A stretch of 43,362 bases of DNA from a virus. The DNA lies in IMG/VR virus record IMGVR_UViG_3300024517_000029, positions 1-43,362 of that record. One strand, 5' to 3'. Below, piece after piece: positions 7,116 to 42,954 of the stretch; within the stretch, counting starts at the first letter, position 1; each line of letters begins with the position of its first letter. A model generated the notes under the pieces. The model was not told the DNA's origin. It saw only the letters and a program-made list of their open reading frames with translations, and did not search any database. Made by a program: the position numbers and the translations under genes.

Positions 7116-7121
7116 CAGACG

Positions 7122-28686: not shown

Positions 28687-28719
28687 TTTGCTATTAACTA
28701 GAATATATTACTATCTTTG
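28687..28719 (+). promoter_or_regulatory. Strong promoter P2
   Basis: TTTG (28687-28690), 21-base spacer, perfect TATCTTTG (28712-28719). It shares TTAA and AATATATT in the spacer with P1 and P3, and AACAATTAAAA in the early transcribed region with P1. Confidence 0.8.
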
Positions 28720-29263: not shown

Positions 29264-29316
29264 TTATAACGTACGGGTATAAAAAATCGTTTTAATGTTT
29301 TTTATACAGTGTTAAC
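29264..29316 (+). repeat. attC-like hairpin repeat 1
   Basis: TTATAAC box, then stem GTATAAAAAA (29277-29286) pairing fully with TTTTTTATAC (29298-29307), loop containing CGTTTTAATG (29288-29297), then GTTAAC. First of the cassette-like repeats. Confidence 0.7.
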
Positions 29317-29350
29317 TACTGTGTGAAAGCGTTGGATTAAAAATATAAAA

Positions 29351-29668
29351 ATGGACTATAGATTTAAAAATTACCGAAGAAGACAATTTGAAAACTGGAA
29401 GCAAAAAGTTAGAAAACGATTGCCTGAAATTACAATTGCTTTTTACAATGCGAAACTAAGTGGTATGTATATACCTTATGAAACCGAAAAAATGCTTGGT
29501 GCTGTTATTAGAGATATAAATAACCCTTACTACTCTATACAGGACGATAGAATGAATTTAATAACTGATACTACAAGCGAGATTTCAGCAATTGTAATAC
29601 TTGAAATTATGGTTAATAAACTTTTTGCGTTTGTGAATGTAAAGTGCGTTGGCTCACATTGTAGTTAA
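29351..29668 (+). CDS. Cassette-like gene 1, hypothetical
   Basis: A 105-residue basic protein. The first 40 residues are very rich in Arg, Lys and aromatics (YRFKNYRRRQFENWKQKV); the C-terminal third is hydrophobic (AIVILEIMVNKLFAFVNV) and ends GSHCS. It is flanked on both sides by attC-like hairpins, and its stop codon lies inside the second one, so it is one complete cassette-like unit inserted next to the helix-turn-helix gene. Function unknown. Confidence 0.68.
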   Translation: MDYRFKNYRRRQFENWKQKVRKRLPEITIAFYNAKLSGMYIPYETEKMLGAVIRDINNPYYSIQDDRMNLITDTTSEISAIVILEIMVNKLFAFVNVKCVGSHCS

Positions 29669-29712
29669 CACAAAGCTAGAAGGTCGTTTCAATGCCTTTT
29701 AGCAACTGTTAT
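29664..29712 (+). repeat. attC-like hairpin repeat 2
   Basis: GTTAAC box, stem GCTAGAAGG (29675-29683) with CCTTTTAGC (29695-29703), loop with CGTTTCAATG, then GTTAT. The upstream stop codon lies within the first box, as in integron cassettes. Confidence 0.68.
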
Positions 29713-29761
29713 AAGAAGTTAATACAAATAGAAATAATTAACGATTAATCAAATAAAAAAC

Positions 29762-29983
29762 ATGAAGAAAGAACAAAGAAAACCACTAGACGGAAACTTA
29801 CAAGAAGACTGTAAACGACAAGTAGAGGACATACTTAAAAACAACATAGGAATTAACCCTAACTTAATCTGTCTAGGCTCAGGAATCGCAACAATGACAC
29901 TTAAGAGACTAAGACAGGGTGAAAACATCAGTGCTGAACAGTTAGACAAGCTAGGTAAGTGGATAGTTAAAAACAAACTTTAG
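29762..29983 (+). CDS. Hypothetical helical protein
   Basis: A 73-residue protein with a charged N-terminal half and a compact helical C-terminal half (MTLKRLRQGENISAEQLDKL) that could be helix-turn-helix-like. It lies just after the attC-like hairpin, next to the HD-domain gene. Function unknown. Confidence 0.68.
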   Translation: MKKEQRKPLDGNLQEDCKRQVEDILKNNIGINPNLICLGSGIATMTLKRLRQGENISAEQLDKLGKWIVKNKL

Positions 29984-29987
29984 AATT

Positions 29988-30548
29988 ATGATTCTGGATA
30001 ACAAACAAAAAAATCTATTAGAGTTCGTTAAAGTAAAACATGGCGATCAAGTGCGGAAATACACAGGCGAACCATACTGGACACATGTAGTAGGTGTTGC
30101 TGAAATTGTATGGGCTTATGACAGGAGAGGAATAGAGGTAGCTTTATGTCATGACCTATACGAAGATACAGATTGCACTTTTAGTATGCTTTACAAGTGT
30201 TTAACTGAAACTTGTGGGTACATGTCTTCCGAGTCATACGATATTTGCACACTAGTAACTGATTTAACGGATGTTTTCACGAAAGAAGACTATACATACA
30301 TGAATAGAAAGAAACGCAAACAGAAGGAAGCGGAGAGATTAGGTACTATTGGTTATTTATCCCAAACTGTTAAATATGCTGATTTGATCCACAACACAAA
30401 ATCAATAGTTGAACACGATAAAGGATTCGCAAAAGTGTATTTACACGAAAAACAAGAAATCTTAGTACATATGGACAATGGTAATGCTGACTTATATGCA
30501 AGATGTGTTGATTTATTGAATAATGAGATTGAAAACTTAAACAAATGA
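29988..30548 (+). CDS. HD-domain phosphohydrolase, Mesh1/SpoT hydrolase-like
   Basis: A 186-residue protein with the metal-dependent HD fold of small alarmone hydrolases. The pattern includes H33 in PYWTHVVGVAEI, H55-D56 and E59-D60 in CHDLYEDTDCT, and D132 with N136 in KYADLIHNTKS. Relatives remove the 3-prime pyrophosphate of (p)ppGpp. In infection it could counter the stringent response; that is inference. It overlaps the next membrane gene by four bases. Confidence 0.8.
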   Translation: MILDNKQKNLLEFVKVKHGDQVRKYTGEPYWTHVVGVAEIVWAYDRRGIEVALCHDLYEDTDCTFSMLYKCLTETCGYMSSESYDICTLVTDLTDVFTKEDYTYMNRKKRKQKEAERLGTIGYLSQTVKYADLIHNTKSIVEHDKGFAKVYLHEKQEILVHMDNGNADLYARCVDLLNNEIENLNK

Positions 30549-30718
30549 AAGTACTAAGGTTCTTTATTTACACCCTCACATCAATTCTAACAGGCTATCT
30601 TATACTAATAACACTATGTATTTACTTAGAGAACAATAAAGCAGTAGATAGTGAAAAAGGGTGGCGGTTTATGGAGCCAGAATCAGAAACTAATATTAAA
30701 AATGATTGTTATGAATAA
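30545..30718 (+). CDS. Small single-span membrane protein
   Basis: A 57-residue protein. One transmembrane helix at about residues 5-28 (FFIYTLTSILTGYLILITLC) is followed by a polar acidic tail. It overlaps genes on both sides (4 and 8 bases), so it is part of one coupled operon. Function unknown. Confidence 0.65.
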   Translation: MKVLRFFIYTLTSILTGYLILITLCIYLENNKAVDSEKGWRFMEPESETNIKNDCYE

Positions 30719-30908
30719 AACAAGAGGACACGAAAGAGTAAATGCTGAGTTAGGTTTAACAAAGCGTGAGCATTTCGCATCAATGGCAACGCAAGGTTTA
30801 TTATCTAATTCTACAAGTGGAGGGCTTGGCGACATTAGTACTTTATCAATTTGCGCTGTAGACGCATCCGAAGCATTAATTAAAGCTTTAAACAAAAATA
30901 GTGATTGA
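30711..30908 (+). CDS. Small phage protein with LTKREHFA motif
   Basis: A 65-residue protein. I took the ATG at MNKTRGHERVNAEL; the longer frame would begin with GTG inside the previous gene. The segment GLTKREHFASMATQGLL is shared by many phage proteins of unknown role that occur near recombination or replication genes. The gene-free RNA region follows directly. Confidence 0.72.
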   Translation: MNKTRGHERVNAELGLTKREHFASMATQGLLSNSTSGGLGDISTLSICAVDASEALIKALNKNSD

Positions 30909-30923
30909 TTAAATAAATTTCAT

Positions 30924-30931
30924 TACCTTCG
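30924..30931 (+). promoter_or_regulatory. Candidate promoter -7 box for the RNA region
   Basis: TACCTTCG, one or two changes from TAnnTTTG, about 7 bases before the first structured element. A TTG upstream is at a non-ideal distance. Confidence 0.4.
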
Positions 30932-30937
30932 TTATGT

Positions 30938-31044
30938 AGTTCTACTGAAAGGTAGCTTCGAAACTACCAGACAGTATTAGGATATTAGGCAAAAGCCAAT
31001 TCAATATAGGAAGGTTATCAGTTCGAAGCGGTAACCTTTTTTTT
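30938..31044 (+). ncRNA. Small RNA with complementary hairpin loops and terminator
   Basis: Hairpin 1: GGTAG/CTACC (about 30951-30967), with loop bases GCTTCGAA (30955-30962). A middle hairpin has GGC/GCC around AAAA inside an ATATT/AATAT stem. The final hairpin has a 9-bp stem, AAGGTTATC with GGTAACCTT, and a run of eight T. Its loop holds TTCGAAGC (31022-31029), the exact reverse complement of the loop bases in hairpin 1, so the loops can kiss over 8 bp. TTCGAA is also self-complementary, so two molecules could dimerise. No ORF is present and no known family matches. Confidence 0.65.
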
Positions 31045-31047
31045 ATG

Positions 31048-31163
31048 GACAATGGTTAGGTAGGTTTTATAAGGTTTGGCATTACCAGTTAAAATGTGAC
31101 AAAACCTACTTAACTCTTTCCATTATCCAGAACTCACAAGACATATAGTGAGTTTTATTGTTT
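31048..31163 (+). ncRNA. Long hairpin plus intrinsic terminator
   Basis: GGACAATGG (from 31047) pairs with CCATTATCC (to about 31129), enclosing a second stem GTTAGGTAGGTTTT / AAAACCTACTTAAC with one mismatch. After it comes a terminator, AACTCAC/GTGAGTT (31131-31154) with a T-rich tail. This could be a second small RNA, or readthrough product of the one before it. Confidence 0.5.
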
Positions 31164-31497
31164 CCCATTTCCACTCAACTGTAAAAAAAGGCAAAAGCTA
31201 CATTAAGACGGTTGTCAAAAGTCTAGCTCTGTGTACCCTCACAACTAGCGACTGCACACTCGAAAGGGGTGACAACTGACCGAAACGGCTAAGTCTAAGG
31301 ACTGAATACATAAGAATAGCTCGCAGGCGGATATAGTACTTAAGGTGTGGTAATGGTCCTGTTAAGGAATGTAAATCGTCACTAGGTATTAGTGCAGGGT
31401 AAAAGGGAAGTTGTATAGAATAGCTAACAATAACACCATAAAGACAATTTAAAAGTAATTAGAGAAGGCAAAGAGGTTTAAACTAAAAGTGAAGATT
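31164..31497 (+). other. Gene-free stretch with several predicted hairpins
   Basis: About 330 bases without a credible ORF. Helices visible by eye: CAACTGT/ACGGTTG around 31176-31214; CACTC/GGGTG around 31256-31270; AGTC-TAAG-GACT near 31293; TCCT/AGGA near 31357; CACTA/TAGTG near 31380. Base composition is less A/T-rich than the neighbours. Together with the two elements before it, the whole gene-free block is nearly 590 bases, the size of ornate large RNAs such as ROOL, but I could not match conserved features of ROOL, GOLLD, group I introns or RNase P. Confidence 0.4.
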
Positions 31498-31806
31498 ATG
31501 GAAGAACAAAAAGTAAGGAAATATAAAACGAGCAGAGATATAGCTATGTTTTACTTACGAGGACATTCAGGAGCGTTAACAACAAACCAAGAAATAAAAG
31601 ATTTAGCCAAGGATATAGATTTATTCATTCAGGAAAAATTAAAAGAAGATGTTATACCATTAATGGACGAATCAAACTTTATAGCTAAACACTTTAAAGA
31701 CAATCCTATTTGCACAGTTTACCGCGTACATGAACTGAACAAAAATATTGAAGATAAGTACGGAATAAAGGTTAACTATACACCAACTGGATTGGATTAT
31801 GAATAA
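31498..31806 (+). CDS. Hypothetical protein after RNA region
   Basis: A 102-residue charged protein with an even mix of helix and loop (SRDIAMFYLRGHSGALTTNQ). The ATG is chosen over an earlier GTG three codons before it. No domain recognised. It is the first gene after the structured RNA block. Confidence 0.72.
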   Translation: MEEQKVRKYKTSRDIAMFYLRGHSGALTTNQEIKDLAKDIDLFIQEKLKEDVIPLMDESNFIAKHFKDNPICTVYRVHELNKNIEDKYGIKVNYTPTGLDYE

Positions 31807-31821
31807 ACAACAATTAGAATT

Positions 31822-32148
31822 ATGCTAGACGGAGAATGTAAGATAGAGTTCGAGAAGTGGTACTATCATAACGAAGCAGAATACGAGTTAGGAATTAGTG
31901 GCGGTCACTCAGGAAAATTACACCCATCAAGAGAGTGGGGAGTAATAGTTGACTTCTTTGATAGTGTTGGAATTTGGTTAATCGAAGATGTTGAACATAA
32001 ATCAACAGGCCATGAATATTCGGTTAAATATAAGCGAGAGTATAATATGGAATTTGGATTAACCTACTCTAATAAGTCACGTAATGAAGCACGAAGTGCA
32101 GCTATAACAAAGGCTAACGAGTTATTCAACTTAAGAAGTAAAGCGTAA
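31822..32148 (+). CDS. Hypothetical protein
   Basis: A 108-residue protein with a Trp/Tyr/His-rich strand region (FEKWYYHNEAEYELGISGGH) and a helical C-terminal part. It is preceded by AACAATTAGAATTATG, the initiation context used repeatedly here. Function unknown. Confidence 0.74.
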   Translation: MLDGECKIEFEKWYYHNEAEYELGISGGHSGKLHPSREWGVIVDFFDSVGIWLIEDVEHKSTGHEYSVKYKREYNMEFGLTYSNKSRNEARSAAITKANELFNLRSKA

Positions 32149-32163
32149 ACAAAACACTGATAA

Positions 32164-32790
32164 ATGCCTAGATGTAAAAGTTGTAAAGCAAAGTTTGAGC
32201 CTGTTAACTTTTTGCAGAAATTTTGCAAAGGAAACAACGATTGTTTAGCGGCCGAAGCACTTTACAATCTAAACAAGATCAAAGAAAAACAGCTAAAAGA
32301 TTGGAACAAGGAGAAGCCACAACGTAAGATAAGTGCTTACTCCAGTAAATACAAAAAGGAACTAGGTGACAACATCAACAAACTATCAAGAATGATAGAT
32401 ACTAGTTTCGGTTACAAAACATGTATTGATTGTCATAGAGGTTATGGAGGCCAAACAGACGCAAGCCATTTTCACAACGTAGGGTTATTTCCTAGCTTAA
32501 GATGGAATTTAGATATTTTACACTCATCCAACAGTTCTTGCAATCAGTACCATGGAGGACGTAAAGAGGGTTACTACGAAGGTTTAATCGAAAGGTATGA
32601 CAAAGAGTACGCAGACTACATAAAGTACGAGATACCGAAGCTATACCCAAGACTAGGGCTAAACTCACAGGAGATATTCGACGCTTTAACAACAGTAAGA
32701 AAATTAATAAGGGATTACGACACTTTTGAGTTTAAAGATGCTCGACACGCAAGGAAACAACTCAACTTACTAATCGGATTGTACAAATGA
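32164..32790 (+). CDS. ninG: NinG/Rap-like recombination protein
   Basis: A 208-residue protein with the NinG pattern: N-terminal zinc-binding cysteines C4-x2-C7 and C21/C27; a charged helical linker; then CIDCHRGYGG (C87, C90) and DASHFHNVG (H102, H104), and SCNQYHGGRKEGYYEGL. NinG/Rap of lambda acts on branched DNA and is HNH-like in its metal site. This suggests a role in phage recombination, although it lies outside the main recombination operon. Confidence 0.82.
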   Translation: MPRCKSCKAKFEPVNFLQKFCKGNNDCLAAEALYNLNKIKEKQLKDWNKEKPQRKISAYSSKYKKELGDNINKLSRMIDTSFGYKTCIDCHRGYGGQTDASHFHNVGLFPSLRWNLDILHSSNSSCNQYHGGRKEGYYEGLIERYDKEYADYIKYEIPKLYPRLGLNSQEIFDALTTVRKLIRDYDTFEFKDARHARKQLNLLIGLYK

Positions 32791-32873
32791 CAGAACTTAT
32801 TTTAGAAGACGTAAAAACACCTGAGCAACAGATAGACGAAGACTTTCACAACTATCTATCACAATCGTTCTAA
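32787..32873 (+). CDS. Very short acidic protein
   Basis: A 28-residue acidic protein (MTELILEDVKTPEQQIDEDF). Its ATG overlaps the ninG stop (ATGA) and it ends before the next promoter. Translational coupling supports expression, but the length leaves doubt. Confidence 0.4.
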   Translation: MTELILEDVKTPEQQIDEDFHNYLSQSF

Positions 32874-32900
32874 ATAATAATTGAAATAAATACAAATATA

Positions 32901-32933
32901 TTTGGAGTTAATAGAAATATATTGTTATCTTTG
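32901..32933 (+). promoter_or_regulatory. Strong promoter P3
   Basis: TTTG (32901-32904), 21-base spacer, perfect TATCTTTG (32926-32933). The spacer keeps the TTAA and AATATATT blocks of P1 and P2. It faces the cassette-like region. Confidence 0.8.
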
Positions 32934-32961
32934 AGTATACGAAAACACAAAAACAATTATT

Positions 32962-33177
32962 ATGTTCGAATTAAACAAAAACCATAGAGAGGCGTTATTA
33001 GAAGATTTATCAAAATGTAATGATAAAATAGAGTCAATAACCAATTGTATAAACTCAACTAAAGAAGATGATCCTAAAAGCACACTATTAGATTGGTGGG
33101 ATATGGATTTATTCTTAGAGCAGAATAGAAAGCAGTTGATTGAGAAATCACTTATTGACAACGAGATAGAATTTTAA
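32962..33177 (+). CDS. Hypothetical helical protein
   Basis: A 71-residue charged helical protein (LNKNHREALLEDLSKCNDKI) that may form a coiled coil. It is the first gene after promoter P3. An inverted repeat and a terminator follow. Function unknown. Confidence 0.72.
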   Translation: MFELNKNHREALLEDLSKCNDKIESITNCINSTKEDDPKSTLLDWWDMDLFLEQNRKQLIEKSLIDNEIEF

Positions 33178-33181
33178 CATT

Positions 33182-33196
33182 CGTAGTACTACTACG
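33182..33196. repeat. Perfect inverted repeat
   Basis: CGTAGTA-C-TACTACG, a 15-base palindrome with one central base, four bases after a stop codon and just before a terminator. It may be an operator or part of the 3-prime end of the mRNA. Confidence 0.6.
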
Positions 33197-33205
33197 TAAC
33201 ACACC

Positions 33206-33244
33206 AACCCAAGCGCAGCCATAAGTAGCAGTCTTGGGTTTTTG
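33206..33244 (+). terminator. Intrinsic terminator
   Basis: AACCCAAG (33206-33213) pairs with CTTGGGTT (33233-33240) around a 19-base loop and continues into T's. It may be extended by CACCA/TGGTG flanks. Confidence 0.6.
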
Positions 33245-33272
33245 GTGGTATAAACAATTAACAATAGAAATT

Positions 33273-33446
33273 ATGGAATCAGAATTAGCATATATGGCAA
33301 TTAATCCAGAAGGGGAGTTTTACTTCCCATCATGTACAGATGAAGAAAAACTTACAGTTGAATTTGTAACTTATCAAAAAGGATTAACTATAGAGGAGTT
33401 GATTATTGCAGGATGGAAATTTACAACTGTGACTGTTCAGCAATAA
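33273..33446 (+). CDS. Small hypothetical protein
   Basis: A 57-residue acidic protein (MESELAYMAINPEGEFYF, then ELIIAGWKFTTVTVQQ). I use the ATG after AACAATAGAAATT; the longer frame would begin with TTG inside the terminator. It is the last gene before the dense cassette array. Function unknown. Confidence 0.66.
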   Translation: MESELAYMAINPEGEFYFPSCTDEEKLTVEFVTYQKGLTIEELIIAGWKFTTVTVQQ

Positions 33447-33519
33447 ACCTTAAATAGCGAACACCACTAATTAAGATTAAAGACAAAAACTTAAACAGCG
33501 TACACTAAATAAGTACACA

Positions 33520-33575
33520 TCAACCCCGTTTTAAAACACGGTGAATTGATTATAACGCTAAGTATAACAGTAGAA
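33520..33575 (+). repeat. attC-like element, partial or rearranged
   Basis: CCCGTTTTAAAACACGG forms a short stem around A/T bases and carries CGTTTTAAAA, and is followed by TTGATTATAACG, which matches the front of repeat 1 exactly. It looks like a fused or eroded copy. Confidence 0.45.
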
Positions 33576-33592
33576 AATAAAACGGAATAGAT

Positions 33593-33724
33593 ATGGAAGT
33601 AAATGTAGCAAAAAGAAGATTTTATATTTGGAAAATAGAATTATGGTGGATTGCTTTTGATAGCCCACAATTTTACCCAGAAGATAGAAGCCATATAAAA
33701 GGCAATTGGTTTTGGAGGCAGTAG
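33593..33724 (+). CDS. Very small cassette-like gene
   Basis: A 43-residue basic, Trp-rich protein (MEVNVAKRRFYIWKIELWWI, ending GNWFWRQ). It lies between two attC-like elements, which supports it as a cassette gene. Possibly membrane-interacting by composition. Too short to assign. Confidence 0.5.
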   Translation: MEVNVAKRRFYIWKIELWWIAFDSPQFYPEDRSHIKGNWFWRQ

Positions 33725-33738
33725 TTTTATTTATTACT

Positions 33739-33790
33739 GTTATACATTGTTATTGTGTGTTTTAATGCACTCTAACGAATAGTAATAAGA
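33739..33790 (+). repeat. attC-like hairpin repeat
   Basis: GTTATTGTG-T-GTTTTAATG-CACTCTAAC: inner GTG/CAC and outer GTTA/TAAC stems around TGTTTTAATG (33758-33767). It follows the stop of the small gene by about 15 bases. Confidence 0.6.
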
Positions 33791-33819
33791 ACAGTACGGA
33801 TTAATTAAAATAATTTACA

Positions 33820-34101
33820 ATGAAAAACGAAAACAAAGCCCCGAATACGGGATGGAGATTAAACAAAATTGAGATTGAATTTAAAGCGGGATATAGTTTT
33901 AAGGACAATGAAGAAGAAAAACACGATAGGTATGTTGGTAAGATAGGTTTTGAAAATGAAGATGGAGAAAATTTTAACCTTAAAATACCTAAAGATATGA
34001 CAACAAGATATATGGATTTGATGCGAGACGATATTATTAAAACTGCTGAAACTTTAGGGGCGAAAATAGCAGACTCAATTAGATTAGTAGACGAAAGTTA
34101 G
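33820..34101 (+). CDS. Cassette-like gene, hypothetical
   Basis: A 93-residue charged protein with a strand-rich middle (RLNKIEIEFKAGYSFKD, KIGFENEDGENFNLKIP) and a helical C-terminus. It is bounded by attC-like elements. Function unknown; small, acidic and plausible as an anti-host or regulatory protein. Confidence 0.72.
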   Translation: MKNENKAPNTGWRLNKIEIEFKAGYSFKDNEEEKHDRYVGKIGFENEDGENFNLKIPKDMTTRYMDLMRDDIIKTAETLGAKIADSIRLVDES

Positions 34102-34114
34102 TATTGTTTTTATT

Positions 34115-34150
34115 ACGTGTTAGCAAATCGTTTTAATGTTAGGCATATTT
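34115..34150 (+). repeat. attC-like repeat, degenerate stem
   Basis: TTACG and GTTAGC boxes around CGTTTTAATG (34129-34138). The stem is poor (GC/GC and a few A-T pairs), so this copy is eroded. Confidence 0.5.
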
Positions 34151-34163
34151 AAAATACGGTATT

Positions 34164-34400
34164 ATGAATGATTTAGTTAAAATATTATCTTCTGACGATG
34201 GATATAAAATAGAGTTAAAAAACCAAGTTTGGCACTACGTTGTTACTTCTTGCGGTGGTTCCGCCACTTTGTGTGAGGGGGAATATTTCGGTATGGGTGA
34301 AAGTGGTTGTGAATATGAAGGTAAGAGAGTAAAAAGAGGCGGTATAACTTGCCCGAAATGTATTAGTATTATTAAAGATTTTAAAGCAATAAAGATTTAG
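34164..34400 (+). CDS. Cassette-like gene with cysteine-rich segment
   Basis: A 78-residue protein. Cysteines occur in VVTSCGGSATLCEGEYF, ESGCEYEGK and GGITCPKCISI, enough for a small metal site. The CPKC pair is typical of zinc ribbons. It is flanked by attC-like repeats. Function unknown. Confidence 0.7.
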   Translation: MNDLVKILSSDDGYKIELKNQVWHYVVTSCGGSATLCEGEYFGMGESGCEYEGKRVKRGGITCPKCISIIKDFKAIKI

Positions 34401-34413
34401 TATTTTAATTGTA

Positions 34414-34462
34414 GATAACGGCTTGTATAAGGTGCGTTTTAATGCACTTTATACGTTGTTGT
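34414..34462 (+). repeat. attC-like hairpin repeat, best stem
   Basis: ATAACG box, stem GTATAAGGTGC (34425-34435) with GCACTTTATAC (34444-34454), 11 pairs with one wobble, loop GTTTTAAT, then CGTTGTTGTA. The clearest copy of the family. Confidence 0.7.
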
Positions 34463-34475
34463 ATTTTAGTAAATT

Positions 34476-34727
34476 ATGGATAAAAAAACTATAAATAGAG
34501 GTAGACAATTAAAGTTTGCAAGAGAATACAGAGGTTTGAATCAAAGTAGCTTGTGTAAAGATATAAAAGGACTTAGCCAAAGTAACCTTAGTAAGTTTGA
34601 AAAAGGTTTTGATTGTATGATAAAAGATGATAAAATAGCCGAAATTATGAACCACTTAAATTTTCCTATTGCTTTTTTGGATGTTATAATGCAACCACTT
34701 TACACAAGTGATGGAATAATTTATTAA
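34476..34727 (+). CDS. XRE-type helix-turn-helix protein in a cassette
   Basis: An 83-residue protein with an XRE-type DNA-binding domain (RGRQLKFAREYRGLNQSSLC, then LSQSNLSKFEKGF) and a C-terminal part (NFPIAFLDVIMQPLYTSDG) seen at the end of the HTH module of XRE/ImmA-type regulators. The metalloprotease part is absent. It may be a free-standing repressor or antitoxin-like regulator. It is flanked by attC-like elements, a normal cargo type for integron cassettes. Confidence 0.72.
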   Translation: MDKKTINRGRQLKFAREYRGLNQSSLCKDIKGLSQSNLSKFEKGFDCMIKDDKIAEIMNHLNFPIAFLDVIMQPLYTSDGIIY

Positions 34728-34729
34728 TT

Positions 34730-34796
34730 ACAACGTTAAGGGTATGGTGTCGGATTTGCTTTTCGCAAATATGCAATATAACCAGTGTTAGCATTA
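34730..34796 (+). repeat. attC-like element, longer variant
   Basis: TTACAACG box, then GGTAT ... ATATAACC outer stem, inner ATTTGC/GCAAAT stem around TTTTC, then GTGTTAGCATTAG. It lacks CGTTTTAATG but ends with the same GTTAGCATTAG seen near 36540, so it is a second subtype of the family. Confidence 0.55.
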
Positions 34797-34825
34797 GTTT
34801 TTAATAATAAATAAATATAAAAGAA

Positions 34826-35017
34826 ATGGGAATAATAAAAATGACAAGTAAAATCAAAAACGATAAATATACTGAGTATGTTTATAACGCTTTTGATATA
34901 CAAGACAAAGAGGAAACAACGGTTGATGTTAATTCAATGATAAATATTAACGAGTGGATGATGTCAAAGCGACAAAGCACAAAGCCTATTGAATATTTTA
35001 TTAATGGGAATCAATAA
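34826..35017 (+). CDS. Cassette-like gene, hypothetical
   Basis: A 63-residue charged protein (MGIIKMTSKIKNDKYTEYVY). No motif recognised. It follows the longer attC-like element, and a small UACG tetraloop hairpin follows its stop. Confidence 0.64.
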   Translation: MGIIKMTSKIKNDKYTEYVYNAFDIQDKEETTVDVNSMININEWMMSKRQSTKPIEYFINGNQ

Positions 35018-35026
35018 TTAATTCGT

Positions 35027-35040
35027 TCGTCTACGGACGG
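35027..35040 (+). other. UNCG tetraloop hairpin
   Basis: TCGTC-TACG-GACGG: a five-pair stem with C(UACG)G, an extra-stable RNA tetraloop. It lies 20 bases before the next gene and may protect the upstream mRNA end. Confidence 0.55.
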
Positions 35041-35060
35041 CTAAAAACAAGATAGAAATT

Positions 35061-35339
35061 ATGAGCATGAAAGACGCAGCGTCCATTATCTACAAATTAC
35101 AGAAGCACATTACTTCTTGTGTAGTAAGTAATTTGAGTGAGAAATACAGAAAGAAAGGACATGAAGTTAAATTTGATGGTGGTGGAAGTCCTATCATCGT
35201 TTTTGATAAATTCACATTATGCACTGGCAACAAAACATATACTGTAAGGTTTACGGATGGTTCCGAATATCATACGAATCAATTATTTAAAGAACTAGAT
35301 AAGCTACATTCTGAAATAATGAATTTCTCAATAATTTAA
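35061..35339 (+). CDS. Cassette-like gene, hypothetical
   Basis: A 92-residue basic protein with a glycine- and strand-rich middle (GHEVKFDGGGSPIIVFDK) and a C-terminal helix. It is followed by a perfect palindrome (TCGGAT/ATCCGA) and CTAAAACAA, similar to the end of the previous gene. Function unknown. Confidence 0.7.
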   Translation: MSMKDAASIIYKLQKHITSCVVSNLSEKYRKKGHEVKFDGGGSPIIVFDKFTLCTGNKTYTVRFTDGSEYHTNQLFKELDKLHSEIMNFSII

Positions 35340-35342
35340 CCT

Positions 35343-35356
35343 TCGGATAAATCCGA
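35343..35356 (+). other. Short palindrome after a stop
   Basis: TCGGATAAATCCGA folds as a five-pair stem with a TAAA loop. Like the UNCG hairpin one gene earlier, it is followed by CTAAAACAA. Confidence 0.45.
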
Positions 35357-35370
35357 CTAAAACAAATACA

Positions 35371-35535
35371 ATGATTTGCACTAATTGCAACAAAAATTTA
35401 GTAGCAGGGACATATCCTAAATGGCTCTGCCTTCAGGTTGAGTGTTCAGAATATTTAGTTCTAAAAACAATACGCGAAGTAGGCCACGCGAAACGCCTCA
35501 ATATGTGGCGTGAGGGACGAATGACAATATATTGA
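35371..35535 (+). CDS. Small cysteine-containing protein
   Basis: A 54-residue basic protein beginning MICTNCNKNLVAG with a CxxC pair, later cysteines in WLCLQVECSEY. A small zinc-binding protein is plausible. It lies in the cassette-like array between very short genes. Not recognised. Confidence 0.5.
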   Translation: MICTNCNKNLVAGTYPKWLCLQVECSEYLVLKTIREVGHAKRLNMWREGRMTIY

Positions 35536-35555
35536 ATGTTATAAACTGAAAAATT

Positions 35556-35714
35556 ATGAATATTTATTTAGCAAAAATGATGGGAAAAAACGGATATGAA
35601 GGCGACACTATGTATGACCTTGTAAAAGCCGATACACCACAAGAAGCAAGGGAGAAGGCAGAAAAGGCTTACGGTTACGGGTATGAAATCGAAATCAATG
35701 TACCTATTGAATAA
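35556..35714 (+). CDS. Small hypothetical protein
   Basis: A 52-residue protein (MNIYLAKMMGKNGYEGDTMY, then AREKAEKAYGYGYEIEINV). The layout, YLAKM...ADTPQEAREKAEKAYGY, resembles small proteins of mobile elements that I cannot name. An attC-like element follows the stop. Confidence 0.58.
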   Translation: MNIYLAKMMGKNGYEGDTMYDLVKADTPQEAREKAEKAYGYGYEIEINVPIE

Positions 35715-35722
35715 TTTCATTG

Positions 35723-35785
35723 TTTATAACGAATTGTGTATAATTTCGTTTTAATGAATTTTACACTTTGTTATTGTTAGTTTGC
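35723..35785 (+). repeat. attC-like hairpin repeat
   Basis: TTATAACG box, stem GTGTA-T-AATT with AATT-T-TACAC around a loop carrying CGTTTTAATG (35747-35756), then TTTGTTATTGTTAG. Nine pairs with one mismatch. Confidence 0.68.
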
Positions 35786-35865
35786 GTGGTGGAAGTAACC
35801 TAATTAATCCTAAACCTTATAGTTAGTAGATACCATAGAGTGTTGAGGACTGGATTAAACCACGC
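35784..35865 (+). other. Leader segment closed by a 7-bp stem
   Basis: GCGTGGT (35784-35790) and ACCACGC (35859-35865) are perfect complements enclosing about 68 bases without ORF. It lies between the attC-like hairpin and the next small gene. Could be a small RNA or an untranslated leader. Confidence 0.4.
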
Positions 35866-35905
35866 ATATTAACTCTAACGCACCGTGTAAAAAACGTTAT
35901 TAATT

Positions 35906-36151
35906 ATGGAAAATACAGACGAAAAATTACAGCACCAATTAAAGATGCAAAAAGTTAGGGAAATGAAAAACCCAACTATATTAATGAATACTAAAGATTT
36001 AGAAACCTTTATAAAACAAGTAGAAGCCCAAGTAAATAATTTTAAAGTAGGAACACCGCCAACTTACGAGGGATTACCAATAATAGCAAGAGAATACATT
36101 GAGCAAGGGAATATAATTATTTGCGATGATGTTATGCGTAATTACATATAA
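35906..36151 (+). CDS. Cassette-like gene, hypothetical
   Basis: An 81-residue charged helical protein (METNDEKL-like start, DLETFIKQVEAQVNNF). Its stop codon lies inside the TATAACG box of the next repeat, as expected for cassette genes. No motif recognised. Confidence 0.68.
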   Translation: MENTDEKLQHQLKMQKVREMKNPTILMNTKDLETFIKQVEAQVNNFKVGTPPTYEGLPIIAREYIEQGNIIICDDVMRNYI

Positions 36152-36182
36152 CGTTTAGGCTAAGAATTTTTAACCCTTGTGT
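36146..36182 (+). repeat. attC-like element half, part of long inverted repeat
   Basis: ATATAACG followed by GGCTAAGAATTTTTAACCC. Bases 36158-36180 are the reverse complement of 36438-36460 with three differences (one allows a wobble), so this element can pair with the one after the next gene. Confidence 0.55.
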
Positions 36183-36223
36183 GCGGTGGGGGATTACACT
36201 GCATAATATTAAAACATATTAAG

Positions 36224-36421
36224 ATGGCAAAAATTACAATTACAGATGAAACAATGGTAGATGAGATAAGAACAACATGTACCGAAACTTTACCTAATGG
36301 TGAGAATAGATTTCAATTTACATTTTTAAATGTAACATTAGATTTTTCAAAAACTGAGCTTTTGGAATTTATGGAGTTTGGAGAAGAAATGATTGAAGAG
36401 GTTTTCCAAAATCAAGATTAA
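36224..36421 (+). CDS. Cassette-like gene enclosed by inverted repeats
   Basis: A 65-residue acidic protein (MAKITITDETMVDEIRTT, then LNVTLDFSKTELLEFMEF). The ATG is preferred over an upstream GTG that lies in the repeat. The gene is enclosed by complementary 23-base repeats, so its whole mRNA could be folded back. Function unknown. Confidence 0.68.
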   Translation: MAKITITDETMVDEIRTTCTETLPNGENRFQFTFLNVTLDFSKTELLEFMEFGEEMIEEVFQNQD

Positions 36422-36437
36422 TAGAAGTGTTGGCAAA

Positions 36438-36560
36438 ACAAGGGTTAATTATTTTTAGCCTTTGTTATGCTTTCGTTTTAATGAAGCCTAATGACTACTG
36501 TATGTGGCGTAGCTTTTTAGCTATGACATATAAAGTTTGTTAGCATTAGTGCGGATTATT
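36438..36560 (+). repeat. Composite attC-like element
   Basis: Right arm of the 23-base inverted repeat (36438-36460), then a GCTTT/GAAGC hairpin with CGTTTTAATG (36474-36483), then TATGT ... ACATA with inner TAGCT/AGCTA, and ending GTTAGCATTAGTGCGG. Two subtypes of the repeat appear joined here. Confidence 0.62.
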
Positions 36561-36580
36561 AACTAATAAAATTAAATAGA

Positions 36581-36643
36581 ATGGATAATTACGAAAAAGA
36601 ATTAGAACAAATCAAAATCAAATCAAATGAAAGTACTAATTAA
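36581..36643 (+). CDS. Very short ORF
   Basis: A 20-residue ORF (MDNYEKELEQIKIKSNESTN) after the last attC-like repeat, overlapping the next gene's start. It may be a coupled leader ORF. Weak support. Confidence 0.3.
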   Translation: MDNYEKELEQIKIKSNESTN

Positions 36644-36770
36644 AAAAGCAACCTTAAAAAGTTACTGGTATAACGATTATATTGGTGAAATCATAGAGGT
36701 AGATGTAGATTCAAAGAATAGAGCTTTAAACTTTGTGTCGGCACAAATAGACTTTTTAAAGGCTCATTAA
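36627..36770 (+). CDS. Short hypothetical protein
   Basis: A 47-residue basic protein (MKVLIKKATLKSYWYNDYIG, then EVDVDSKNRALNFVSAQI). It resembles the small cassette genes before it and closes the array, followed by a 70-base gap and a strong terminator. Function unknown. Confidence 0.58.
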   Translation: MKVLIKKATLKSYWYNDYIGEIIEVDVDSKNRALNFVSAQIDFLKAH

Positions 36771-36840
36771 ATAATTAATCGTACATTGCAGTATCAAAGT
36801 AGTTTTCTTTCCTTTAAACTCTTTCATACTTAATTGTTTT

Positions 36841-36872
36841 AAAGCCCTTAGATTCATAACTAAGGGCTTTTT
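36841..36872 (+). terminator. Strong intrinsic terminator
   Basis: AAAGCCCTTAG (36841-36851) pairs perfectly with CTAAGGGCTTT (36860-36870), 11 bp with an 8-base loop and T's after it. It closes the accessory array. On the minus strand the A run before it would also serve. Confidence 0.85.
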
Positions 36873-36873
36873 G

Positions 36874-36881
36874 TATATTTG
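36874..36881 (+). promoter_or_regulatory. Promoter -7 box before the AraC-like gene
   Basis: Perfect TATATTTG, four bases before the start codon, so the mRNA would be nearly leaderless, as for the leftward gene at 14704. The -33 region lies in the terminator stem and shows no TTG. Confidence 0.5.
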
Positions 36882-36885
36882 ACAT

Positions 36886-37209
36886 ATGGATTTAACAACA
36901 GAAGTACTTAACGAATATCTAGATAAGAACAATCTAAGCAAGGATTTCACAATACAAAAGATGGGCAAGGACTTAAACAAGTCAAGAACACTATTCTTTT
37001 TAGAGGTGAAAAACCTAACAGGACACAACCCTAGCCAAATGGTAATGCACTACAGATTAGAAAAGGCTAAACCAATGCTTCACACAGCCAAACACATTTC
37101 AGAGGTAGCTTATAAAGTTGGATTCGACAGTACAGCTTATTTCAGTAAGTGTTTCAAACAGACTTTTAAGATGTCACCAAGTCAGTACATCAACTCAGAA
37201 AGAACATAA
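36886..37209 (+). CDS. AraC-type DNA-binding domain protein
   Basis: A 107-residue protein that is only the AraC/XylS DNA-binding domain. Two helix-turn-helix units are seen, the second being the typical HISEVAYKVGFDSTAYFSKCFKQTF-MSPSQY pattern (about residues 70-100). The usual N-terminal sensing domain (100-200 residues) is absent. It may activate phage or host promoters. Stand-alone domains of this kind are unusual in phages. Confidence 0.85.
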   Translation: MDLTTEVLNEYLDKNNLSKDFTIQKMGKDLNKSRTLFFLEVKNLTGHNPSQMVMHYRLEKAKPMLHTAKHISEVAYKVGFDSTAYFSKCFKQTFKMSPSQYINSERT

Positions 37210-37224
37210 GTTATAATATTTACG

Positions 37225-37232
37225 TATCTTTA
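37225..37232 (+). promoter_or_regulatory. Promoter -7 box candidate
   Basis: TATCTTTA, 16 bases before the next start codon, with no clear -33 element. Moderate to weak. Confidence 0.4.
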
Positions 37233-37248
37233 ACATAAATAAACAGTT

Positions 37249-37413
37249 ATGGAACAAGACGATAAGCTCGACAAAAAAGAGTACTACTTGAAAGAGATAA
37301 TGATCAGTAACAAAAGAATAGCTAACAATATGTCTTTCTTTGCGTGGATCGTAATTATAAGCTTTTCAGTAACAGTTCTAGGTGGGTTATACTGGATGAG
37401 CGCAAATCTATAA
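37249..37413 (+). CDS. Small C-terminal membrane-anchor protein
   Basis: A 54-residue protein: charged N-terminal 25 residues (DDKLDKKEYYLKEIMISN) and one transmembrane helix near residues 29-50 (FFAWIVIISFSVTVLGGLYW). Tail-anchored layout. Function unknown; located before another membrane protein gene. Confidence 0.65.
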   Translation: MEQDDKLDKKEYYLKEIMISNKRIANNMSFFAWIVIISFSVTVLGGLYWMSANL

Positions 37414-37418
37414 AAGAC

Positions 37419-37847
37419 ATGAAAAAAGCAGTAATAGCATTTGCAACAGTAGCACAGACAATACTAAGATACTTTACTATTGTAATCGACAGGCTAGTAA
37501 TGGCTCCATTTATAGGAGTGCCACTTCCAGAGATTAACCACTCCAAACAAGTACCAGTAGTTGACGAATTCACAACAAACGAAGAGATAGAAGAAATCGT
37601 TGATTTAGAAGACAGCTTAACAATAAAATACTTCAAAGAGTACTTACCTAAAGCCAGAAGAAGAACATTAAGAACAATTGCAATATCGACAACTATATAC
37701 ATATTCACCCTAGTATCATGGACAACAGTATTTCTAACACTAGGAACAGGAGCAGTAGCATTTTCAGTAACACTACTAATCCAGTATTTAATCAAGAGAG
37801 CTAAAAACAAATCTAATGAACGAAACAACGACAATAACCTTTCCTGA
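37419..37847 (+). CDS. Membrane protein with N-terminal and paired C-terminal helices
   Basis: A 142-residue protein. I took the ATG at MKKAVIAFATVAQ, five bases after the previous stop. The N-terminal hydrophobic stretch (3-40) is followed by an acidic soluble region (about 45-85) and two C-terminal transmembrane helices (about 88-110 and 111-125). No known family. Adjacent small membrane genes suggest a role at the cell envelope. Confidence 0.72.
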   Translation: MKKAVIAFATVAQTILRYFTIVIDRLVMAPFIGVPLPEINHSKQVPVVDEFTTNEEIEEIVDLEDSLTIKYFKEYLPKARRRTLRTIAISTTIYIFTLVSWTTVFLTLGTGAVAFSVTLLIQYLIKRAKNKSNERNNDNNLS

Positions 37848-37962
37848 TTTATTAGCTATACTATGCAACGGAGTACATGAAGCACAAGACTTAGCAATTG
37901 AATTCGGATGGACAAACGACAATGATATGTATTTATTAATGCCTATATACAGACTCAATTAA
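37816..37962 (+). CDS. Short hypothetical protein
   Basis: A 48-residue acidic protein (MNETTTITFPDLLAILCNGV, then FGWTNDNDMYLLMPIY). It overlaps the upstream membrane gene by 32 bases and ends seven bases before the next. Codon usage and length look real; function unknown. Confidence 0.6.
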   Translation: MNETTTITFPDLLAILCNGVHEAQDLAIEFGWTNDNDMYLLMPIYRLN

Positions 37963-37968
37963 ACAATT

Positions 37969-38208
37969 ATGGAGCAATCGACACCAAAAGAAGCTCTTCT
38001 AAGCGACGAAATAACAGAAGCTATGGATAGGGTACAGAAAACATCAAAGATATCTCTAAGAGCATTAGAGAACCATAAAGAGGCTAATGAACACTTAGAA
38101 GAGTTGTTGGATAGTAAGGCGTGGAAAGAATTACGAGAAAACAATGTCATAGAGGCGGTTAGTAGGCTAAACAAGGAGGAGGCGTTACCGATCAATAAGA
38201 TTAGATAG
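37969..38208 (+). CDS. Hypothetical helical protein
   Basis: A 79-residue acidic, all-helical protein (EALLSDEITEAMDRVQKTSK, ENHKEANEHLEELLDS). Possibly a coiled coil. It precedes the terminase genes by two genes. Function unknown. Confidence 0.74.
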   Translation: MEQSTPKEALLSDEITEAMDRVQKTSKISLRALENHKEANEHLEELLDSKAWKELRENNVIEAVSRLNKEEALPINKIR

Positions 38209-38247
38209 AGGTACAACCTTTTACCAATTAACGAATCCTAGCAATAA

Positions 38248-38475
38248 ATGAAATTACACATATTCCATAGCTATAAAGACGTAGGACAAAAGTTCATATC
38301 ATCTTACTTCCCTTACTTCTTTGATCCACAAGGAAATGATGTAGAATATGGTGTAACACAGAACATGGAATGCAAAAAGTGCGGAAAACACAAACACTAT
38401 ACTTTGAAAATAAGAGGTAAGAAAGAGCACTTAACACCTGATGTAGTAGCAAACATATATAACATTGAATTATGA
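38248..38475 (+). CDS. Small protein with CxxC-HKH segment
   Basis: A 75-residue protein with CKKCGKHKHYTLKIRG near residue 42, which could hold one metal with two Cys and two His. The rest is strand-like. It lies just before the small terminase gene and might bind nucleic acid. Not recognised. Confidence 0.7.
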   Translation: MKLHIFHSYKDVGQKFISSYFPYFFDPQGNDVEYGVTQNMECKKCGKHKHYTLKIRGKKEHLTPDVVANIYNIEL

Positions 38476-38509
38476 GTAAAGAAACATTAATTAACGAAAC
38501 TAAATAACT

Positions 38510-38944
38510 ATGGGAGAAGCAAAAGAAGGAGACAAAAGACTAGGTAATAAGTTTGCTTTAGGGTTAACCACAAATGGACAGCCTCCTGTATACAAAACAC
38601 CTGAAGAAATGACTATCAAAATAGAGGAATATTTCGCCATTCTATTAGATGACGAAGAGAAAGAATACGAAACAAGACCAACTATGACTGGAATGGCTCT
38701 GTACTTAGGTTTCAGCTCCCGTCAAAGCATGTATGATTACGCAAAAAAGAAAGATTTCTCTTACATTGTATCGCGCAGTCAGCAAGTTATAGCTATGTCT
38801 TACGAGGAAATGCTATTAACAAAAGTAAGTGCAGGGGCTATATTTGCATTGAAAAATATGGGGTGGGATGATAAGACAGTTATCGAGCAAACAAACATTG
38901 AACCACCTAAGATTGAGTTTACAGATGAAGATGAAGAAAATTAA
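38510..38944 (+). CDS. terS: Terminase small subunit
   Basis: A 144-residue protein with the pattern of small terminase subunits of this phage group. The start region contains YKTPEEMTIKIEEYFAILLD, then TMTGMALYLGFSSRQSMYDY, which is a helix-turn-helix-like DNA-recognition segment, and KVSAGAIFALKNMGWDDKT toward the end. It would recognise phage DNA and load the large subunit. The large terminase lies 110 bases downstream. Confidence 0.85.
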   Translation: MGEAKEGDKRLGNKFALGLTTNGQPPVYKTPEEMTIKIEEYFAILLDDEEKEYETRPTMTGMALYLGFSSRQSMYDYAKKKDFSYIVSRSQQVIAMSYEEMLLTKVSAGAIFALKNMGWDDKTVIEQTNIEPPKIEFTDEDEEN

Positions 38945-39054
38945 CACTAGGATTACAATAGTACTAAATAGGTGGATAAAGCAATGTGCATCTATCATAG
39001 ACAGTAAACAATGAAAACTATAAAGGCGGAATTTACGATACTAGGAATACAACA

Positions 39055-40353
39055 ATGAAGATAAGCCGTAAATACAAACCACTATTTGAAGTTGTCCAAG
39101 GCAAGCACCCTCAAGTCGACACAATAGTACTTACTGGCGGTAGGGATTCAGGTAAATCATTTGTTGCTTCATTAGCTGTTTGTGATGCAGCGGCCAATTA
39201 TAATCACAGAGCATTATACACGCGTTACACATTAACTTCTGCAAAGGATTCTATTATACCTGATTTCAACGAGAAGATAACAATGCTAGGTTATGAGGAT
39301 TACTTTCACATAACAAATGACAGGGTTCAATGTGTTCACAATAGAGGCAAGGTAGTATTCAAAGGATTCAAAACAAGTCAAGGAAACCAAACGGCAAATC
39401 TTAAGTCGTTAAAGGATTTCTCAATGTTAGTATGTGAGGAAATGGAAGAGTACCCATCATACGACGAATGGGATAAGGTGCAATTATCAATACGTGCCAC
39501 AGACGTTCAGTCATTAAACATAGGAATACTCAACCCAACAACAAAGAAGCATTGGGTATACCGTGAGTTCTTCGAGAATAAAGGAGTTAAGGGAGGGTTC
39601 AACGGGATCAAAGGAAACATACTATACATTCACACAACTTATTTAGATTTAGGTAAGGAGTTTATAGCCCCTAAGAACTGGAGGAAATACGAGGCTGCAA
39701 GATTGATATTTGAGAAGTTAGACAAGCTAAGTACTAAGGATAGGTTGTTATCAGACAGGAAAGAACTTAAGATTTACAAATACTATAAATATACTGTTCT
39801 AGGTGGTTGGATGGAAACAGCAGCGGGTGTAATATTTGAAGACTACGACACTTACGATGAGCTTCCAGAAGATGTTGAGAGTAAGTTATGGGGGTTAGAT
39901 TTTGGCTACTCAAAAGACCCTACAGCATTTGGAGAGGTAAACGTAGCGCCAGATGATCTTTATCTTAAGCAACACATATATGAAACAGGGCTATTAAATA
40001 ACGACCTAGCAGACAGGATTAACATGATACTAGGAGATGAGGAAACCTACATCATTGCAGATCATGCTAGACCTGACTTAATAGATGATTTAAATAGAAT
40101 TGTAGGTGAGAAAGGCTACAACTTTGTAGTGCTTCCTTGTGATAAAGGCCCAGGTTCTGTACGTGATGGATTAGAGAAGATGAAAGACAAGAATATCCAC
40201 ATACACAAAGACTCTAAGGACTTTTTAGACGAGGCTAACCACTATCATCAAATAGAAGTTATAAACTCTAAAGGCGAGACTGTGTATCATATTGTAGATA
40301 AGGACAATCACCTTTTCGATCAGGCACGCTATTCGTATTGTAAGTTCTATTAA
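39055..40353 (+). CDS. terL: Terminase large subunit
   Basis: A 432-residue packaging motor and nuclease. The ATPase domain has Walker A GGRDSGKS (28-35) and Walker B SMLVCEEMEE (123-132). The RNase H-like nuclease has acidic residues in LWGLDFGYSKDPT (near 282) and IIADHARPDLIDDL (near 336). It is of the PBSX/Terminase_3 type, which usually cuts by headful. Length is normal. The first 110 bases before it hold only a 15-codon ORF that overlaps the start. Confidence 0.95.
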   Translation: MKISRKYKPLFEVVQGKHPQVDTIVLTGGRDSGKSFVASLAVCDAAANYNHRALYTRYTLTSAKDSIIPDFNEKITMLGYEDYFHITNDRVQCVHNRGKVVFKGFKTSQGNQTANLKSLKDFSMLVCEEMEEYPSYDEWDKVQLSIRATDVQSLNIGILNPTTKKHWVYREFFENKGVKGGFNGIKGNILYIHTTYLDLGKEFIAPKNWRKYEAARLIFEKLDKLSTKDRLLSDRKELKIYKYYKYTVLGGWMETAAGVIFEDYDTYDELPEDVESKLWGLDFGYSKDPTAFGEVNVAPDDLYLKQHIYETGLLNNDLADRINMILGDEETYIIADHARPDLIDDLNRIVGEKGYNFVVLPCDKGPGSVRDGLEKMKDKNIHIHKDSKDFLDEANHYHQIEVINSKGETVYHIVDKDNHLFDQARYSYCKFY

Positions 40354-40356
40354 CAC

Positions 40357-40385
40357 TTGCATATCAAATATATTTTACTAACTTA
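40357..40385 (+). promoter_or_regulatory. Promoter of leader RNA copy B
   Basis: TTGCA (40357-40361) and TAACTTAG (40378-40385) with a spacer of 18-21. The implied start is at the first hairpin of the leader. Confidence 0.55.
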
Positions 40386-40390
40386 GCGTT

Positions 40391-40485
40391 ATCAAAAGTG
40401 AACTAGGGAATCACAAGAAATTTAGAATTGATAGTATCTCGCATTAGAAAGCCTTCCCCTAGTTGGCGTCTAATGTGGGGCTATC
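40391..40485 (+). ncRNA. Structured 5-prime leader RNA, copy B (kissing hairpins)
   Basis: Hairpin 1: GTGA/TCAC (40398-40401, 40411-40414) with loop ACTAGGGAA. Hairpin 2: GATAG/CTATC outer, CATTAGA/TCTAATG middle, GCC/GGC inner stem with loop TTCCCCTAGTT. Loops pair over eight bases: AACTAGGG (40401-40408) and CCCTAGTT (40457-40464). Compared with copy A at 17888, both loop pairings are kept while three base pairs are exchanged, so the fold is conserved by covariation. Shared sequence includes TCAAA-GTGA, ATCACAA and AATTTA. It leads a small-gene operon. Confidence 0.72.
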
Positions 40486-40506
40486 ATATGTAAAAACAAT
40501 TATATT

Positions 40507-40698
40507 ATGGATTATAAGCAAAAGCAAAGACACTTTAAGAATCTATCAAATCGAGTAACTAATATTTGGACAAGAACTGAAATGGTTGGACTTCGACAGG
40601 TGGGAGTTCCTTATGTAAAAGCAGTACACGGGTTGATCGGAAGTGACAAGGTAAGAGCAGAAAAAAGAGCTAACGAACTAAGTAAGCGTAGAGCATAA
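40507..40698 (+). CDS. Hypothetical basic protein after leader RNA
   Basis: A 63-residue very basic protein (KQKQRHFKNLSNRVTNIWTR, then AEKRANELSKRRA). It is the gene controlled by leader copy B, 21 bases after its last stem. It could bind RNA or DNA. A hairpin follows. Confidence 0.68.
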   Translation: MDYKQKQRHFKNLSNRVTNIWTRTEMVGLRQVGVPYVKAVHGLIGSDKVRAEKRANELSKRRA

Positions 40699-40706
40699 AA
40701 CAAACC

Positions 40707-40735
40707 ACCCCCATCGTCTATGTACTTTGGGGGTT
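40707..40735 (+). terminator. G/C hairpin, possible terminator
   Basis: CCCCCA (40708-40713) pairs with TGGGGG (40728-40733); the T tract after it is only two bases, so termination would be weak. Confidence 0.4.
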
Positions 40736-40748
40736 AACAATTAAGATT

Positions 40749-41060
40749 ATGACAAAGGACGAAATACAGAGTAGAGAACAAGACAAGCTGAGTAAGTTTA
40801 AGATCAATTATTATTACTTAGCTACAGGCATGGAGGGTATTGCAGACACATATCCAGAGAAGATAATAGAAGCTAAGACTAAAGACATGGCTGTTTATAT
40901 TTACCTATTAATGTTCATGGCTGAGACTGATACTAAAATAATAGAAGTCGATAAATCTAATGGAAGCAATGGTTATTCTTTTACTTCATTTAGTGAGTTT
41001 GTAGAGGTTAACGAATGTCACAAGTATTGGGGGGTGTCAGTAGATAAATTAACAAATTAA
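40749..41060 (+). CDS. Hypothetical protein
   Basis: A 103-residue protein, helical with a central stretch rich in Met, Ile and aromatic residues (MAVYIYLLMFMAETDTKI). It starts with the AACAATTAAGATT context. Function unknown. Confidence 0.72.
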   Translation: MTKDEIQSREQDKLSKFKINYYYLATGMEGIADTYPEKIIEAKTKDMAVYIYLLMFMAETDTKIIEVDKSNGSNGYSFTSFSEFVEVNECHKYWGVSVDKLTN

Positions 41061-41064
41061 GATT

Positions 41065-41280: not shown

Positions 41281-41284
41281 AACT

Positions 41285-41710: not shown

Positions 41711-41718
41711 AGAGAAGT

Positions 41719-41979: not shown

Positions 41980-41982
41980 GTC

Positions 41983-42303: not shown

Positions 42304-42351
42304 ACCGATACTAGACGGTAATATCTAGGTAACTAAATAAACAATATAATT

Positions 42352-42840: not shown

Positions 42841-42844
42841 TCCG

Positions 42845-42923: not shown

Positions 42924-42954
42924 ATGCGCTATGGTGGTTAGATTTTAATCACAA

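Follow-up and report, generated by a model that had tools for sequence, protein, structure and literature searches.

Do the hairpins that separate a row of very small genes in a viral record act as sites at which whole genes are exchanged, in the manner of integron cassettes? The question arises from the region between positions 29,264 and 36,560 of IMG/VR record IMGVR_UViG_3300024517_000029, which we analyzed over its whole length of 43,362 bases (hereafter, the window). The original prediction described at least seven hairpins with CGTTTTAATG or a close variant in the loop, lying between mutually unrelated small genes, and read them as attC-like sites of a cassette array without an integrase in the window. 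We found that the hairpins are real, although several of the listed sites needed correction, and that the interpretation as a cassette array is supported, with three amendments given below. The data indicate a widespread integron-like system of Bacteroidota and their phages, whose recombinase lacks the part that defines known integron enzymes.

We first asked whether the motif alone is informative. All seven listed positions (29288, 29685, 33758, 34129, 34435, 35747, and 36474) carry CGTTTTAATG with at most one mismatch. Exact copies occur five times, all on the + strand, with none on the − strand and none for the reversed control. When two mismatches were allowed, however, the motif was at chance level (78 observed against 71 expected), so that the evidence rests on the structure. 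A search of Rfam gave no match to the hairpins. The region is composed of the following elements, with scores from the covariance model described below.

29267–29314 (+), recombination site 1 (TAACG-hairpin-GTTA), the start of cassette 1; 64.4 bits; 28-bp exact match to Polaribacter phage P12002L
29351–29668 (+), cassette 1 ORF, 105 aa, no Pfam match, with its stop codon in the next TAAC box; terminal inverted repeats at 29309–29326/29654–29671; the site folds to −16.6 kcal/mol in the inferred circle against −7.6 in the array
29666–29711 (+), recombination site 2 (TAACA-hairpin with CGTTTCAATG-GTTA); 39.8 bits
33553–33752 (+), site with an ORF inside the loop: TAACG at 33553, arm 33562–33583, ORF 33593–33724, arm 33724–33745, GTTA 33749–33752, in the form TAACG..GTATAACAGTAGAAAATAAAAC-[ORF]-GTTTTATTTATTACTGTTATAC..GTTA; inverted repeat 91% complementary, which folds
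33749–33777 (+), hairpin with reversed box order, GTTA-TGTTTTAATG loop-TAACG
33820–34101 (+), ORF, 93 aa, unknown
34119–34145 (+), degenerate site around CGTTTTAATG at 34129; 15.1 bits, E 0.23
34164–34400 (+), ORF, 78 aa, unknown
34416–34461 (+), recombination site (TAACG-hairpin-GTTG); 46.4 bits; distant blastn match to a site in Tenacibaculum phage JQ
34476–34727 (+), ORF, 83 aa, weak HTH match (PF12844, E 6e-4, below cutoff)
34731–34790 (+), long-loop site variant (CAACG..GTTA); 16.7 bits, E 0.08; long variants are common in phage arrays
34826–35714 (+), small ORFs of one stretch (34826–35017, 35061–35339, 35371–35535, 35556–35714); the part next to the box at 35727 is replaced in the sister phage L304
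35727–35773 (+), recombination site; 53.7 bits; the sequence to the left of TAAC is replaced in L304, whereas hairpin and downstream gene are kept
35906–36151 (+), ORF, 81 aa, which stays with the hairpin at 35727
36149–36467 (+), site with ORF 36224–36421 in its loop (arms 36157–36180/36438–36461), in the form TAACG..AGGCTAAGAATTTTTAACCCTTGT-[ORF]-ACAAGGGTTAATTATTTTTAGCCT..GTTA; inverted repeat 88% complementary, folding to −18.7 kcal/mol with the loop shortened
36464–36491 (+), hairpin GTTA-GCTT-CGTTTTAATG-AAGCC-TAA; 21.3 bits; at 36489, the insertion point of a 209-bp cassette present in L304

To test the structure, we searched viral contigs for the pattern TAACG-N-CGTTTTAATG-N-GTTA, which gave at least 120 stretches and at least 128 sites with paired flanks, most of them 45–49 in length. 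We built a covariance model from 52 sites, 49 from other viral contigs and three from the window (29262, 34411, and 35722), which match by construction. All 12 pairs of the variable stem show changes on both sides, and covariation was 0.467 against 0.161 for shuffled sequences. The model finds 29262 (E 2e-14), 35722 (1e-11), 34411 (1e-9), and, outside its training set, 29661 (7e-8), whereas 36466 (0.005), 34726 (0.08, longer loop), and 34126 (0.2) are partial matches. The family (TAACG-bulge-stem-CGTTTTAATG-stem-TGTTA) is found in over 100 viral and over 100 genome contigs, mostly Bacteroidota.

Some of the listed hairpins had to be reassigned. Those at 33758 and 36474 have the box order GTTA-hairpin-TAA(C), the reverse of the others; six such cases were found in viral loci, against 143 ordinary sites, and none in host loci. 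The hairpin at 34129 pairs only weakly, and 33527 is not a site by the model, although a TAACG box lies at 33553. The two sites with a whole ORF in the loop had been missed; the same architecture is present in a cassette of Polaribacter phage Freya_6. No role is known for these variant sites. The predicted overlap of stop codons with the TAAC box at 29668 and 36151 is correct, as is the absence of an integrase: no tyrosine recombinase was found in the window.

Next, we examined sister phages, because identical gene order without variation at the hairpins had been named in advance as the outcome that would overturn the cassette reading. The result was the opposite. Contig L304, from a sister phage, is 99.9% identical to the window from 35727 to 42967 apart from a few point differences and two events. 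To the left of the TAAC box at 35727 the sequence is unrelated, so that a neighboring cassette is replaced, and at 36489 a 209-bp cassette with its own terminal inverted repeat (L304 1404–1612) is inserted, with junctions at the TAA(C) box. At 35727, the hairpin stays with the gene that follows it and not with the one before it, indicating that polarity in this phage is reversed relative to classical cassettes, the first amendment to the original reading. The other condition set beforehand, that the hairpins might also lie inside coding sequences, was not borne out either, as sites lie inside ORFs in only about 3% of cases.

A second case of gain and loss came from cultured isolates of Freya. 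We compared six isolates (1, 5, 6, 8, 9, and 10) between a shared gene and the integrase. Of the 15 pairs, 10 are single clean insertions of 307–4942 bp sharing only 3–8 nt that include AAC, and the other five (5 and 8, 6 and 8, 6 and 9, 6 and 10, 8 and 9) change at AAC boxes as well, next to a tyrosine recombinase. The model finds no sites in Freya or in Cellulophaga phage Ingeline, and one weak match in Polaribacter phage Leef, so this best case of gain and loss uses diverged sites; nor did the model find sites on the tet(X3) plasmid or the Chryseobacterium plasmid. The Freya cassettes could also be moved by a host enzyme.

We also compared cassette ends. In 39 cassettes bounded by two detected sites, the left and right ends of the same cassette are complementary at 5.36 of 12 positions, against 4.09 for shuffled partners (0 of 2000 as high) and 3.82 for the two flanks of one site. 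This is what excision through the box predicts, since the ends meet again in the circle. Detection may skip intermediate sites, which weakens the signal. These data bear on the possibility that the hairpins are transcription terminators or RNA elements and that the gene variation is ordinary phage mosaicism. The hairpins are indeed intergenic, but the lack of an Rfam match, the junctions that fall in the AAC box to the base in two unrelated phages, the linked recombinase, and the complementary cassette ends make this alternative very unlikely.

We then searched for the recombinase. Sixteen genomes with the pattern all have sites, as expected because they were picked by it, and the best integron-integrase-like genes in several of these genomes lie beside the arrays, in several Bacteroidota chromosomes 0.4–1.3 kb from the last site. 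The proteins have Phage_integrase and SAM-like domains. They score near the cutoff of NF040815 and below that of TIGR02249, which matches in two stretches because the IntI-specific patch is missing; none of 20 site-bearing genomes gave a TIGR02249 match above cutoff. The KDR-to-HxLR spacing is 53–61 in linked integrases against 99–100 in three IntI; two rows gave 23 through a motif mis-hit, and one could not be read. An AlphaFold model of one phage integrase, made without an alignment, had a pLDDT of 40 and was not used.

A profile of 11 of these proteins was searched against 50 site-bearing genomes, chosen because they have sites. It revealed a gap between this class (≥347 bits, in 34 genomes) and Xer (≤190 bits), with some fragments and intermediates at 215–280. 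In 196 Flavobacteriales genomes, 8 of 9 with detected sites have the class, against 46 of 187 without (p = 2e-4, or 5e-4 without the centre genome). Only 28 candidates per genome were scored in this site scan, and the site counts are therefore lower bounds. In the tree, phage and host integrases together separate from the Xer and IntI proteins sampled with 97/93 support.

Of 51 site-bearing viral records, 12 carry the class at 266–300 bits and one has a weak partial match. Sites lie upstream of the gene on the same strand, and one record, G061, also has sites beyond it. In the 11 whose start was read, TAACTA-N-ATATAT or a near variant lies shortly before the start codon; the reading frame of the remaining record, L272, was only a 3′ piece. 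Freya, Ingeline, and Leef have AACACCCCTATA, AACACCCACATA, and AACGCCCCTATA, respectively, at the same place. Thus, the integrase-bearing phages have an attI-like entry point next to the integrase. In the window, an attI-like match at 28695–28708 (one mismatch) is not beyond chance and lies on the wrong side of the array. Leef and Ingeline each have a second tyrosine recombinase, whereas phage JQ, which has two good sites, has none.

Single-strand transposition (IS200/IS605-like) or homing at hairpins would also involve site recognition by a hairpin, and an HNH gene lies next to the integrase in Freya. However, a tyrosine recombinase is linked to the arrays in phages and hosts, and cassettes enter next to it at a fixed sequence. 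We consider this explanation very unlikely, although HUH or serine enzymes near arrays were not searched for systematically.

Site polarity differs between phages and hosts. Among 118 host sites, the clear cases have genes on the strand opposite to CGTTTTAATG, 89 against 12, whereas among 136 viral sites genes are on the same strand, 118 against 3 (p = 2e-44). Seen along the coding strand, host arrays run integrase, then gene, site, gene, site, whereas phage arrays run site, gene, site, gene, then integrase. The integrase thus sits at the same end of the site-oriented array in both. The gene lies upstream of its site, as in classical integrons, in hosts but not in phages; no reason for this is known, and we know of no earlier report of it.

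Together, these data are best explained by a phage-borne array of mobile gene cassettes of an integron-like system of Bacteroidota and their phages, a conclusion in which we have high confidence. In this view, each cassette begins at the AAC box of a hairpin site, carries one or a few small genes, and ends just before the next Y|AAC. A tyrosine recombinase related to integron integrase but lacking the IntI-specific patch would recognize the folded strand that carries CGTTTTAATG, cleave in the AAC box, and excise or insert cassettes; in the excised circle, the two cassette ends would become complementary and extend the hairpin. In integrase-bearing phages, new cassettes would enter at the attI-like sequence just upstream of the integrase start codon. 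The sequences themselves show the site family, its covariation, cassette gain and loss with junctions at the AAC box, the linkage to the recombinase, and the position of attI. That this recombinase does the work, the cleavage strand and chemistry, single-stranded folding, and what the cassette genes do are inferences; no biochemistry was done, recombination of the folded bottom strand was not assayed, and no excised circle or enzyme activity is shown. It is likewise inferred that the window array is served in trans, by a host or coinfecting phage enzyme. No host of this phage is known, but JQ, P12002L, and Freya suggest Flavobacteriaceae (inference). The remaining amendments to the original reading are that the loop sequence is conserved, unlike in classical attC, and that the recombinase linked to this site family is a patchless relative of IntI.

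A further reading, which we regard as likely, is that Bacteroidota and their phages, from 37-kb siphophages to phage records of several hundred kb, share a second kind of integron run by patchless integrases, and that the phages keep their own polarity-reversed cassette pool, distinct from the host pool, with its own attI. The system would extend integrons to Bacteroidota, where standard tools find almost none, explain a source of small variable genes in flavophages, and offer cultured phages (the Freya isolates) in which cassette exchange can be tested directly. It also raises the questions of whether the IntI patch is needed to recognize folded sites and why phages and hosts use opposite site polarity.

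How does the array compare with systems already described? Qi et al. 2023 (PMC9892861) screened 10,705 phage genomes and reported integrons or their components in 21 phages, including a CALIN in phage P12002L, of which one of two tested attC sites recombined with attI1 in the presence of IntI1. P12002L has three matches to our model, at 30003–30061, 30904–30960, and 32218–32286, with genes on the same strand as in other phages; which of these is their attC2 was not checked. The divergent attC directions that they noted there might be explained by the polarity rule found here (inference). Theirs is a CALIN described in one phage, and we found no dedicated integrase, attI, polarity rule, or gain and loss in the parts of the text consulted; the patchless integrase, attI, reversed polarity, spread, and natural gain and loss are new here. 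By our own site model, the window has at least two attC-like sites without an integrase, as in a CALIN; the IntegronFinder and HattCI attC models were not applied. These observations raise the alternative of a classical CALIN, with cassettes captured from an ordinary IntI integron of the host and no system of its own. We consider this unlikely, because the linked integrases lack the patch and form their own clade, phage site polarity is opposite to that of host arrays, and complete IntI integrons are nearly absent from Bacteroidetes in IntegronFinder 2.0 (PMC9024848).

Freya, Ingeline, and Leef (PMC8776804) encode the patchless integrase with an AAC-starting attI-like sequence before it. In their publication, the integrase was read as a sign of temperate life, and the words integron, cassette, hypervariable, and insertion do not occur in its main text. 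Xer recombinases and NF040815 (XerA-type, "site-specific tyrosine recombinase/integron integrase") belong to the same enzyme superfamily, but the phage and host integrases form a separate clade from the Xer proteins sampled, and most host members carry an extra N-terminal region without a Pfam match. The integron (IntI, attI, and attC cassettes) shares with this system small-gene cassettes bounded by structurally conserved hairpin sites with AAC/GTT boxes, insertion next to a tyrosine recombinase, and gain and loss at the box, and host arrays have genes oriented to the sites as in classical integrons. In contrast, the integrase here lacks the IntI-specific patch, the site core is about 45–49 bp with a conserved CGTTTTAATG loop, and the R boxes RYYYAAC/GTTRRRY are not conserved beyond AAC/GTT and the adjacent Y/R, the next positions being near 50%. 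The host integrase is co-oriented with the array and upstream of it, whereas in phages genes and integrase lie on the other strand relative to the site, and an ORF can sit in the loop.

Two hairpins of the window have the reversed box order GTTA-loop-TAA(C), at 33749-33777 and 36464-36491. We found six such hairpins in viral loci and none in host loci. The window also contains a weak match to an HD domain at 29988-30548 (PF13328, E 1e-5), which is below the cutoff.

The host-type integrases at loci L253 (7898-9343), L258 (1061-2638), and L263 (3025-4320) carry an extra N-terminal region of roughly 100-200 aa, for which no Pfam match was found. This region is apparently repeated in L253 and L258.

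A truncated relative of the host-type integrase and a host-type integrase were also found on plasmids. On Acinetobacter plasmid pJAT2044 (L287, 2967-3632 and 3822-4988), a truncated relative of 221 aa lies directly upstream of tet(X3), next to ISVsa3. No site was found there with our site model; the idea that tet(X) may once have been a cassette of this system is speculation. Likewise, our model finds no site on a Chryseobacterium plasmid (L288), although it carries a host-type integrase (6959-8002) followed by co-oriented small genes, and the record annotates this enzyme as a "site-specific tyrosine recombinase/integron integrase."
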